Shown here one piece after another: positions 35,443-39,463 of a stretch of DNA of 64,000 nucleotides; the first letter of the stretch is position 1; each line of letters opens with the position of its first letter. The position numbers and the translations under genes are program-made. The stretch lies in assembly GCA_005502925.1 (NCBI GenBank), contig SCPD01000002.1:124001-188000 (forward strand), in the 5' to 3' direction. Below the pieces are notes generated by a model that made no database searches, was not told the DNA's origin, and saw nothing but the letters and a program-made list of their open reading frames with translations. The stretch comes from Rhizobiales bacterium Y(2018) (GTDB lineage Bacteria > Pseudomonadota > Alphaproteobacteria > Rhizobiales > Aestuariivirgaceae).

Positions 35443-35846
35443 CCCAGGCGCTCGATATCGGGGAGGCCTGTGAGATCGACCCAGTCATGCCGGCGGGACT
35501 CGTAGACCGAGACACGCGGCGCCGGGAAGCTGGGATCGGCGAAGGCGCCGACCGCGACCGCATAGGCCTCCGGCACACCGCTCAATTCCCAATAGACGGT
35601 CGAGCCGCAATGCGGACAGAAATGGAAACTCACCGTGCCGTCGCTGTCGCCCTTGCGGGTGAAACGCGTGCTGTCGCCGGCGATGTGCCGCACATTTCCT
35701 TTCAGAAAACGTGCCTGCATGCCGAAGACGCTGCCGGTGCGCTTCTGGCACGCGAGGCAATGGCAGATCGAGATGCGGATGGGCTCGCCGCGGCAGGCGA
35801 TGCGCAACTTCCCGCAGGCGCAGGAGGCCTCGCGCTCCATCGTCAC
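35439..35846 (-). CDS. GFA-family (glutathione-dependent formaldehyde-activating-like) zinc protein
   Basis: This 135-aa protein has the GFA zinc-binding cysteines: Cys9/Cys11 (CACG), Cys28/Cys30/Cys33 (CHCLACQ) and Cys77/Cys80 (CPHCGS). Members bind zinc with a CENP-V-like fold; the name comes from Gfa, which was reported to join formaldehyde and glutathione, but most members have no proven reaction. The start overlaps the hrcA stop by 4 bases, so it is likely co-transcribed with hrcA. Confidence 0.9.
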
Positions 35847-36934
35847 GTGATCAGGCGCCCGATGATACGCGCGGTGTAATCGACCATCGGGATGATGCGG
35901 GCATAGTTCATCCGCGTTGGGCCGATGATGCCGAGCGCACCGACGATCTTCTCCTCGCTATTGCGATAGGGCGCGACGATGAGGGAGGAGCCCGACATGG
36001 AGAAGAGCTTGTTCTCGGCGCCGATGAAGATGCGCACCCCTTCGCCGATCTCGGCCGAGCCCAGAAGCTGGATCAGTCCCTTCTTGTTCTCGAGATCGTC
36101 GAACAGGCGGCGGATGCGCTCGAGATCGTCGAAGGCCGTGAGATTCTCGATGAGATTTCCCTGGCCTTTGACGATCAGCGTGCGGTCGTCTTCCTCGGCA
36201 TTGCCCGACCAGGTGGCGACGCCGTCGGCGACGACCTTCGCGGTGAGCTCATCGAGCTCGGTCTTGAGCGTCGCGATCTCGTCATGCATGTGGCGCTGCA
36301 ATTCGCCGATCGTCTTGCCCTGCATGCGCGCCGAGAGATAATTCGACGCCTTGATGAGCGAGGAGGGCGGCAGGCCGGGCGGCAGGTCGATGGCGCGGTT
36401 CTCCACCGTACCGTCCTCGGCGACCAGGATCACGAGGCCGCGGCCGGGCGACAGGCTGACGAATTCGATATGCTTGAGCCGGGCATTGAGCTTCGGCGCC
36501 ATCACCAGGCCGGCGCAATGCGACAGGCCGGAGAGGAGCGTCGTCGCCTCGCCCAGCACTTCCTCGATGCGGCGCGAGCGGTTGGCGCCGGTCATCTGCG
36601 CGTCGATGCGGGCGCGCTCCTCGGGCGAGATCGAGCCCACTTCGAGCAGCGCATCGACGAAGAAGCGCAGGCCCGCATTGGTCGGCATGCGCCCGGCGCT
36701 GGTATGGGGCGAATATATGAGGCCGGTCTCCTCGAGATCCATCATCACATTGCGCACCGATGCCGGCGACAGGCTCGACGGCAGGATGCGTGAGATGGTG
36801 CGCGAGCCGACGGGCTCCCCGGTGTCGAGATAGGTCTCGACCAGGCGCCGGAAAATGTCGCGCGAGCGCTGGTCGAGCTGGGCCAGGCCCTGCAGGCGTT
36901 CATCGACCAGAGGTTTCTGCGGATGGATGCTCAT
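35843..36934 (-). CDS. hrcA: Heat-inducible transcription repressor HrcA
   Basis: This 363-aa repressor of chaperone operons (usually groESL through CIRCE elements) has an N-terminal winged helix ([34 protein letters not shown]) and the following [17 protein letters not shown] typical of the family. A GAF-like and dimerisation part follows. A sigma70 promoter at 36941-36969 would start the transcript at about the ATG, implying a leaderless mRNA. No CIRCE copy was seen before hrcA or grpE, so its targets are elsewhere. Confidence 0.96.
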
Positions 36935-36940
36935 GGGACG

Positions 36941-36969
36941 AATGTAAAAACGAGACCCCCCTGGGTCAA
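36941..36969 (-). promoter_or_regulatory. Sigma70-type promoter of hrcA
   Basis: On the minus strand: TTGACC (36964-36969), 17 bases, TACATT (36941-36946). The distance from the -10 to the hrcA ATG (36932-36934) is six bases, so initiation should fall on or next to the first codon. It lies back to back with the palindromic operator of the zinc operon. Confidence 0.65.
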
Positions 36970-36983
36970 TGAAAGCAAAGGGC

Positions 36984-37038
36984 TTGCGCCCTCATTTCAA
37001 TATTGTTATGTTATAACATAACAATATTGAAATGAGGG
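36984..37038 (+). promoter_or_regulatory. 50-bp perfect palindrome with embedded promoter: probable Zur operator
   Basis: Bases 36989-37038 form an uninterrupted 25+25 bp perfect palindrome centred on TTATAA; its core is TGTTATGTTATAACATAACA. The core, with overlapping GTTAT and ATAAC half-sites, resembles the AT-rich palindromes bound by the zinc repressor Zur (Fur family). A promoter can be drawn as TTGCGC (36984-36989), 17 bases, TATGTT (37007-37012), so a bound repressor would cover the -10. The genes downstream are of zinc-starvation type. A transcript through the palindrome would also form a long hairpin ending just before the ribosome binding site. Confidence 0.75.
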
Positions 37039-37046
37039 GAATGAAC

Positions 37047-38243
37047 ATGAAATCCTTGCGTCTCTTGCTGTTGGCCGGTGCCGGCCTTGCTATCTTCGCC
37101 GCCGGGCTCGCTTCGGCGGCCGAACAGGAGCATTGGCGGGTTTTCGTCGCCGATCACAGCGCCCCGACGCTGCATGCCGTTGACGTCAAGAGCGGGGCAG
37201 TGCTGGCGACCATTGGCGTCCAGGCGCCGGCCGCCCTTGAGGCGAGCAAAAGCGGCCGCATTGTCTTCGCCGTGCAGTCCGATGCCGACCGCGTCTCGGC
37301 GATCGCCAGCGGCGTGGCGCTCGACGATCATGGCGATCACGGTGATCTCAAGCTGACGACACCTTATCTGCTCAATGCCGTGTCGAAGGGCGCCAAGCCG
37401 GTCCATCTCGTCGAGCATGACGGCAAGATCGCGATCTTCCATGACGGTGATGGCAGCGTCGCCATCCTCGCCGAAGCGCAATTCGCCAAGGGCAAGCTCG
37501 CGCCGCAACGGCTGGAGACGGCGGCGCCGCATCACGGTGTGGCGGTGCCGCTTGGCGACAAGGCGCTTGTCTCCATCCCCAATCCCAAGGACGCGGACGA
37601 ATTGCCCATCGGCATGCGGCTCATCGATGAGCAAGGCAAGGCGGTCGCCGATTATGCCTGCCCCGATCTACATGGCGAGGCGTCCTCAGGGCCGCTGCTG
37701 GCGATCGCCTGCGCCACCGGCCTGCTTGTCGTCGATTCGCAGAAGGCGGAGCCGCGCATCACTTTCCTTCCCTATTCGTCGTCACTTCCCGAGGGCAAAG
37801 CGACGACGTTGAGAGGCGCCAAGTCGCTGCGCTATTTCATCGGCAATTACGGGCCGGAGGCGATTGTGCTTGTCGACCTCTCGGCGCAAGAGCCGTTCCG
37901 GCTGGTGAAGTTGCCGGCGCGCCGCGTCGACTTCACCATCGATCCCGAACATTCCGACCGCATCTATATCTTCACCGAAGACGGCTCTTTGCATCGCATC
38001 GACGCGATCAAAGGCGAGATCGTCAAAAGCGCCAGGCTCACGCAAGCCTACAGCATGGATGGCCATTGGCGCGATCCGCGTCCGCGCCTCGCGGTGGCGG
38101 GCGAAGAGATCGTGGTGAGCGATCCCTTGGCCGGTATTCTGCGCGTCGTGAATTCCGAAACCCTGGCCGAGAGCCGCAGCATCGATATCGACGGCATGCC
38201 CTATGGGCTGGTGGCGCTCGGCGGTTCGGGCGAGATCCATTGA
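37047..38243 (+). CDS. aztD: AztD-like periplasmic zinc metallochaperone
   Basis: This 398-aa exported beta-propeller-like protein has a signal peptide ending near ASA (residue 24). After it comes [11 protein letters not shown], and near residue 95 the histidine/aspartate-rich zinc loop DDHGDHGD typical of AztD, which hands zinc to the AztC solute-binding protein in Paracoccus. The start at 37047 is chosen because GAGGGGA lies six bases before it; two earlier in-frame ATGs (37032, 37041) have no such site. No aztABC transporter is present nearby. Repression by Zur through the upstream palindrome is inferred. Confidence 0.82.
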
Positions 38244-38251
38244 GGCGCGGC

Positions 38252-39463
38252 ATGCAGGACAATCGTATTCCAGTCACCGTTCTGTCGGGCTTTTTGGGTG
38301 CCGGCAAGACGACATTGCTCAATCACATTCTCAACAACCGCCAGGGCCTCAAAGTGGCGGTGATCGTGAACGATATGAGCGAAGTGAATATCGACGCCGA
38401 GCTGGTGCGCGCCGGCAACAGCCTGGCGCGCACCGAGGAAACATTGGTCGAGATGACCAATGGCTGCATCTGCTGCACCTTGCGTGACGATCTTCTGAAG
38501 GAAGTGCGCCGTCTCGCCGCGCATGGGCAGTTCGATTACCTGCTGATCGAAGGCACCGGCATCGCCGAGCCGCTGCCGGTCGCCACCACGTTCGCCTTCC
38601 GCGACGAGAATGGCATTTCGCTGTCGGATGTCGCGCGCCTCGACACGATGGTGACCGTCGTCGATGCGGTGAACTTGCTCAGCGACTATGGCAGTCCCGA
38701 TCGGCTCGCGGCGCGCGGCGAAACGGCGGGCGAAGGCGACGGGCGCCTGCTGGTCGATCTCATCGTCGACCAGATCGAATTCGCCGATGTCGTGGTGATC
38801 AACAAGATTGCCGATGTCTCGCCCGAAGACCGCGAACGCGTGCGCAAGATCGTGCGTGCGCTCAATGGCGATGCGAGCGTGATCGAGACCAGCCATGGAC
38901 GCGTCGCGCCGGCCGAAATTCTCGCCACCGGACGTTTCGATCATGCCAAGGCCGAGGAGCATCCTTTATGGTTCAAGGAGCTGAATGGCTTCGCGAGCCA
39001 CAAGCCCGAGACCGAGGAATACGGGATCTCGAGCTTCGTTTATCGGGCAAGACGGCCCTTTCATCCGGGGCATTTCAATGCGTTTCTCGAACGGACATGG
39101 CAGGGGCTGATCCGCGCCAAGGGTTTCTTCTGGCTGGCGACACGGCCCGATTGGGTCGGCGATATGAGCCTTGCCGGCGCGATCTGCCGCACCGAAGGCT
39201 TGGGCCTTTGGTGGGCGGCTGTGCCGGCGGAGCGCTGGCCCGATCACCCCGGCTGGCAACGTGAATTGGGTGCGAAATGGGTGGCGGGCTGGGGCGATCG
39301 CCGCCAGGAGCTGGTCTTCATCGGCGCCGGTCTCGACGAAAAGGCGATGCGGGAGGCGCTCGATGACTGCCTGGTCGGACCCGAGCAGCCCTCGCTTTTC
39401 GAAGCTGACGATTACCGCAAGCTTGCTGATCCCTTCCCGGAATGGCGCCGCGAAATGGCCTGA
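38252..39463 (+). CDS. zigA: COG0523 (CobW/ZigA-type) GTPase, probable zinc chaperone
   Basis: This 403-aa G3E GTPase has Walker [10 protein letters not shown] (residues 13-21), the metal-binding CxCC (Cys72-Ile-Cys-Cys75 in TNGCICCTL), the NKxD-like INKIAD and a C-terminal CobW domain. Zur-regulated COG0523 members (ZigA, YciC, ZagA) deliver zinc to client enzymes under zinc limitation. It starts nine bases after aztD, so both form one operon. The operon context favours zinc over cobalt or nickel. Confidence 0.85.

Follow-up and report, generated by a model that had tools for sequence, protein, structure and literature searches.

The aztD-zigA operon of Rhizobiales bacterium Y(2018) has a canonical two-dimer Zur box at the centre of a 50-bp perfect palindrome, and Zur very probably represses the operon through this box. 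On balance, the sequences favour a reading in which Zur would repress the operon from this 20-bp core, and the symmetry outside it would be a lineage-specific product of template switching and not part of the operator. The comparison relied on the sister species, Aestuariivirga sp. YIM B02566 (G054), whose AztD is 95% identical, and on Taklimakanibacter lacteus (75%). Coordinates refer to the window, the whole 64,000-nucleotide stretch of DNA that was analysed.

35843 to 36934, minus strand: hrcA, the divergent neighbour (TIGR00331, 320.6 bits, cut-off 197.2)
36941 to 36969, minus strand: predicted hrcA promoter TTGACC-17-TACATT, a consensus match only, outside the palindrome
36967 to 36954, minus strand: predicted terminator-like site
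36993 to 36978, minus strand: predicted terminator-like site, reaching five bases into the palindrome
36984 to 36989, plus strand: putative -35-like TTGCGC, with 3 of 6 consensus bases, 17 nt before TATGTT in the core
36989 to 37038, no strand: 50-bp perfect palindrome (25+25, no loop), by direct arm comparison
36989 to 37003, no strand: left outer arm; apart from its first base it falls within the spacer from the -35-like TTGCGC to the core; seven alignment columns differ from the sister
37004 to 37023, no strand: core operator TGTTATGTTATAACATAACA, with two overlapping predicted Zur dimer sites; core identical in the sister
37024 to 37038, no strand: right outer arm, the leader into the Shine-Dalgarno; 1 of 15 positions substituted in the sister, and a 1-nt indel where arm and core meet
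37047 to 38243, plus strand: aztD-like gene (NF038015, 370.4 bits, cut-off 400, E = 7e-111)
38252 to 39463, plus strand: zigA-like COG0523/CobW GTPase gene (NF038288, 592.3 bits, cut-off 600, E = 3.9e-178)

The palindrome is real and is an outlier in this genome. As the earlier note had claimed, it is uninterrupted: its two 25-nt arms (36989-37013 and 37014-37038) are 100% complementary, with no spacer. In 400 kb of the genome it was the longest loop-free palindrome, and the runner-up had 22 bp. The other perfect loop-free palindromes with arms of at least 9 in these 400 kb comprised four with arms of 9, four with arms of 10 and one with arms of 11. Arms of at least 25 are expected 3e-8 times per 7.1 Mb (genome pair probability 0.267), and this expectation together with the 400-kb survey ruled out a chance origin. 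The sequence on either side aligns collinearly with the sister genome, and this speaks against an artefact of assembly. The palindrome was also considered as a terminator; neither of the two predicted minus-strand terminator-like sites is the palindrome.

The palindrome sits between the start of hrcA (36934, minus strand) and the aztD-zigA operon. Both genes of the operon were as the earlier note described them; their NCBIfam scores fell slightly below the cut-offs. They are separated by 8 nt. The zigA-like product matched Pfam cobW and CobW_C. The aztD-like product had no Pfam family match and, by eye, a signal-like N terminus; it is predicted to be periplasmic zinc metallochaperone-like.

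Zur control of this operon, which the earlier note had proposed, is well supported by the distribution of the predicted binding sites. In the whole 7.1-Mb genome, GTTATNNNATAAC was found at three loci with 0 matches in the backward control: the aztD-zigA operon, znuA (upstream of the gene, L002/L015) and zur-znuC (directly before the Fur-family gene, which is followed by znuC; L004/L012). The core of the palindrome contains two copies, at 37005-37017 and 37010-37022, offset by 5. Pattern comparison showed that the 20 bp fit both RNNNYRNNRYNNYRNNNY and TGWNAYRWTATAWYRTNWCA exactly; the latter pattern occurred in this genome at the palindrome and znuA only (control 0). In E. coli, as described in the consulted part of PMC4219657, one Zur dimer recognizes RNNNYxxxRNNNY and two overlapping dimers recognize RNNNYRNNRYNNYRNNNY, with TGWNAYRWTATAWYRTNWCA as the 20-bp form. 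The core here fits this arrangement, in which two 13-bp dimer sites are shifted by 5 against each other, and its overlapping half-sites thus correspond to a known Zur-box architecture. Unlike the E. coli box, the symmetry here extends 15 bp further on each side. Two or more dimers side by side had been suggested for the palindrome. The two overlapping predicted sites in the core agree with this, but further dimers on the outer arms do not hold, as GTTAT/ATAAC half-sites start only at 37005, 37010, 37013 and 37018, all within the core; a third or fourth dimer was ruled out by the absence of GTTAT half-sites from the arms. When zinc is sufficient, zinc-loaded Zur would bind the core, which overlaps the likely -10, and shut off the operon; loss of zinc would release it. 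A looser genome scan (TGTTATNNNATAACA, at most two mismatches) gave 34 forward matches against 28 in the backward control, so sites were called only at the three exact loci. One of the looser matches was a one-mismatch site at C16:46056.

A similar set of targets is described for Paracoccus denitrificans in the accessible part of PMC5387054, with Zur motifs at aztA (the first gene of aztABCD), znuA, zur and a COG0523 gene, and aztD as the most induced gene under zinc depletion. The sites found here, at the aztD/COG0523 operon, znuA and zur, resemble that regulon. However, the P. denitrificans motif given there is a 15-bp GTAATGTAATAACAT-type sequence unlike the core here, and its aztD belongs to aztABCD, whereas here aztD is paired with zigA. 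No AztC above the family cut-off was found in this genome; the sole match was ZnuA, at 179.2 of 350 bits (G000:C32:263776), and the aztD-like gene at 37047-38243 is thus apparently an orphan. P. denitrificans AztD is reported, in the portion of PMC6689063 available to us, not to pass zinc to ZnuA. The aztD-zigA operon joins a compact predicted Zur regulon of this alphaproteobacterial genus (Aestuariivirga/Taklimakanibacter).

The exact 18-bp core was present in 28 of the 397 genomes of the order, this genome included. Besides the present site there were 31 sites in 27 genomes, of which 27 were read, one per genome, with AztD, ZigA, Zur, ZnuA and ZnuC of this genome as query proteins. At 10 of the 27 loci there was a ZigA homologue with 60% identity or more; the others had a ZnuA-like protein (about 25-29%) at six, a Zur-like protein with COG0523-type matches at one and a ZnuC-like protein at one; nine had none of these. 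When the neighbours at ten same-core loci were scanned with Pfam, SBP_bac_5 was found at three, Peripla_BP_2 at two, ZnuA, ZinT, ABC_tran and DUF4198 at one each, and no family at one, i.e. ZnuA, ZinT, Peripla_BP_2 or SBP_bac_5 proteins at seven of the ten. Five genomes of the genus were searched for GTTATNNNATAAC, with 4, 4, 3, 1 and 2 forward matches and 0, 2, 1, 4 and 3 in the backward control, so the raw counts alone are not above chance everywhere. By sequence recognition, the genus sites that were read preceded homologues of znuA, zur and aztD. The exception was a T. lacteus site (L059, G055:C1:466752, minus strand), where an exact Zur-type site precedes what reads as a gene for a Fur-family-like regulator. 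Of 39 aztD relatives in named genomes, four (L019, L020, L024 and L030) carried an exact GTTATNNNATAAC around the start of the AztD match, in a zone reaching up to 300 bp upstream and 75 bp downstream of it.

The candidate regulator is the Fur-family protein encoded behind the zur-znuC site. It matched E. coli Zur (PDB 4mtd, E = 2.1e-26) and also the Fur-family structure 7dh7 (E = 1.8e-29); its best NCBIfam family was Zur, with 117.9 bits, below the cut-off of 167. Apart from it, the Fur-family member found in this genome was Irr. By hand count on the 4mtd alignment, Glu57 and Ala60 of the Zur-like protein align with Asp49 and Arg52 of E. coli Zur; unlike the E. coli protein, it thus carries Glu and Ala at the places of the inter-dimer salt bridge of the (Zur2)2 complex, and this Asp49-Arg52 bridge is absent from the aligned protein. 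With Ala in place of the Arg, two dimers need not bind cooperatively. As read from the alignment, this lowers the claim of cooperativity and not that of a Zur box. Asp49 and Arg52 are highly conserved in Gram-negative Zurs according to PMC4219657; the consulted part of a review (PMC6103462) describes the salt-bridge residues as conserved only in enterobacterial and actinobacterial Zurs.

The outer arms seemed to be occupied by ordinary promoter and leader sequence. TTGCG is common to this species, the sister and T. lacteus, and its distance to TATGTT is 17 nt here, 16 in the sister and 22 in T. lacteus, which has TATTGT at the core edge, 16 nt from TTGCG. At the znuA promoter, a perfect TTGACA lies 17 nt before TGTTAT within the znuA core. 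The left outer arm is therefore probably the promoter spacer. The palindrome ends, as had been claimed, at a ribosome binding site: position 37038 falls inside GAGGGG (37034-37039), the likely Shine-Dalgarno, 8 nt from the ATG at 37047. Further in-frame ATGs are present at 37032 and 37041. The right outer arm is likely the leader reaching this Shine-Dalgarno.

AztD of this type was found in three of the 69 genomes of the family, so just two relatives are informative on the outer arms. In the sister the perfect palindrome is the 20-bp core, and 6 of the 15 outer pairs are symmetric (ungapped); T. lacteus has 3 of 15 (ungapped). The earlier note attached importance to the length beyond the core and named freely varying outer arms in close relatives as evidence against it. 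When the arms were compared, the core was kept in the sister and the right arm nearly so, while the left outer arm varied; with T. lacteus and the chance-level symmetry at same-core sites elsewhere (see below), the importance of the extra length was not borne out. As far as the aligned sequences go, these relatives do not share the outer symmetry, and the extra 15 bp on each side are most likely without function and not part of the operator.

The long symmetry is most likely the scar of a template switch at a quasipalindrome, but as to the direction of the change the outgroup leans the other way (see below). All seven left-arm differences lie within a 15-bp stretch whose sequence exactly reverse-complements the adjacent arm. 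A nascent strand may have folded on the already palindromic core and been extended with one arm as template, so that the second arm became its reverse complement. The left arm, as sequence-tolerant spacer, would more plausibly be the copied one; the right arm, constrained as leader with the ribosome binding site, would more plausibly have served as the template. In the consulted parts of two reports, template switching perfects quasipalindromes in E. coli (PMC7202029) and is put forward as a source of hairpins during evolution (PMC8794818). As in the E. coli case, one arm here is the reverse complement of its neighbour around a palindromic core; unlike that case, the event here is deduced from three genomes, and at a repressor operator. 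The titles and opening parts of abstracts retrieved by literature searches contained no recognizable report of a Zur box with long symmetric arms, or of template switching at a bacterial operator.

We surveyed mutation clusters (at least four differences) in a 366-kb alignment with the sister, defining a template as a reverse complement, 10 bases or longer, that lies no more than 80 bp away. Among the 902 clusters, four had a template, two on our side and two on the sister side. The palindrome cluster had the most differences (7), and its template of 15 was tied for the longest with one sister-side cluster. Templated clusters as a class showed no clear enrichment (2/902 on our side versus 28/18,040 in the random control). 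Dense clusters were also not rare, with at least seven differences in 1.0% of 16-column windows compared with the sister. At one mutation cluster (own position 122113) the sister carries a perfect 20+4+20 hairpin (joined-stretch 123291-123334), possibly the result of a second template-switch event.

A variant that does not exclude this reading places the palindrome already in the common ancestor, with the sister having lost it in the promoter spacer; we hold it as a tentative possibility, less probable than a recent origin but with a real share. Of the seven left-arm columns that differ, T. lacteus matches this genome at five and the sister at one, which suggests that the sister may be the changed one and that the long palindrome may predate the split. 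However, T. lacteus has symmetry at just 3 of the 15 outer pairs, it agrees with the sister at the single right-arm difference, and its arm alignment is weak, being no better than chance (shuffle p 0.13 for this genome's arm and 0.43 for the sister arm). The sister would also need seven changes in one arm against one in the other.

The palindrome might instead be an extended operator over its whole 50 bp, in which the outer arms tighten Zur binding through contacts or DNA shape and the symmetry is selected. We regard this as unlikely. The perfect symmetry across 15 outer pairs would fit it, as would the zur operators of this genome, the sister and G057, which are symmetric to 21 bp. Against it stand the lack of GTTAT half-sites in the outer arms and the end of the symmetry at the core in the sister. 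At the 27 same-core sites, the mean was 4.52 of 15 outer pairs compared with 4.46 with shuffled partners, and 893 of 2000 shuffles reached the observed mean. None of the 11 other Zur-type site rows read within the genus had perfect arms longer than 10. The exception among the 27 sites, also in favour of an extended operator, was L130, with 12 of 15 outer pairs in a genome of another family; at least 12 of 15 pairs occur in 1.7% of shuffled pairings. Here (L130:1491-1528, genome G280) the perfect palindrome around the same core spans 38 bp, and a Peripla_BP_2 gene lies nearby.

An idea of about the same low standing, if anything slightly less probable, is that operators seed palindrome growth: a symmetric core, perhaps with replication forks stalled at tightly bound Zur, would drive template switching that makes the flanks perfect, working outwards. 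If so, the length of operators in genomes would partly be a record of mutation and not of selection.

Control by an RNA hairpin had been suggested earlier as a possible second layer. A 23-bp stem in the transcript that would hide the ribosome binding site appears very improbable as a control: the palindrome folds well as RNA (-33.8 kcal/mol, z = -8.2) and the stem contains the GAGGG of the Shine-Dalgarno, but transcription would have to start upstream of 36989, whereas the -35-like TTGCGC and a -10 inside the core would place the start inside or after the core, leaving the left arm untranscribed and the 23-pair hairpin impossible. The sister fold is weaker (-15.9 kcal/mol, z = -2.3, equalled or bettered by 5 of 200 shuffles), and the conserved pairing expected of a structured RNA leader was not kept in the ungapped outer pairs of the two relatives. 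By eye, the sister left arm keeps CCTC opposite GAGG; together with its above-shuffle fold, this implied that part of the pairing is common to both species. A known RNA family was rejected, as the Rfam search gave only sub-gathering matches, the best being a plant-type microRNA model at 26.1 bits against 117.

If template switching did produce the outer arms, mutation can write operator symmetry that motif finders take as function. A spectacular palindrome in a promoter need not mean a bigger operator or an RNA switch.

Four short-loop inverted repeats with arms of 16-20 were found in the same 400 kb, apart from the 50-bp palindrome. Two of these were 20+3+20 copies of a dispersed repeat with the hairpin TTTGATCGAATCGNNNCGATTCGATCAAA (copies at, e.g., G000:C22:123076 and 307381). 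Allowing at most three mismatches, TTTGATCGAATCGNNNCGATTCGATCAAA was found at 24 places in this genome, 22 in the sister, six in G057, one in T. lacteus (with three mismatches) and none in G056, with 0 in the backward control. The comparison at our own copy at C22:123076 was not clean. One sister copy forms an insertion of about 130 bp, for which the empty site lies here at window position ~42430, and the repeat resembles a small mobile element of the MITE or REP type.
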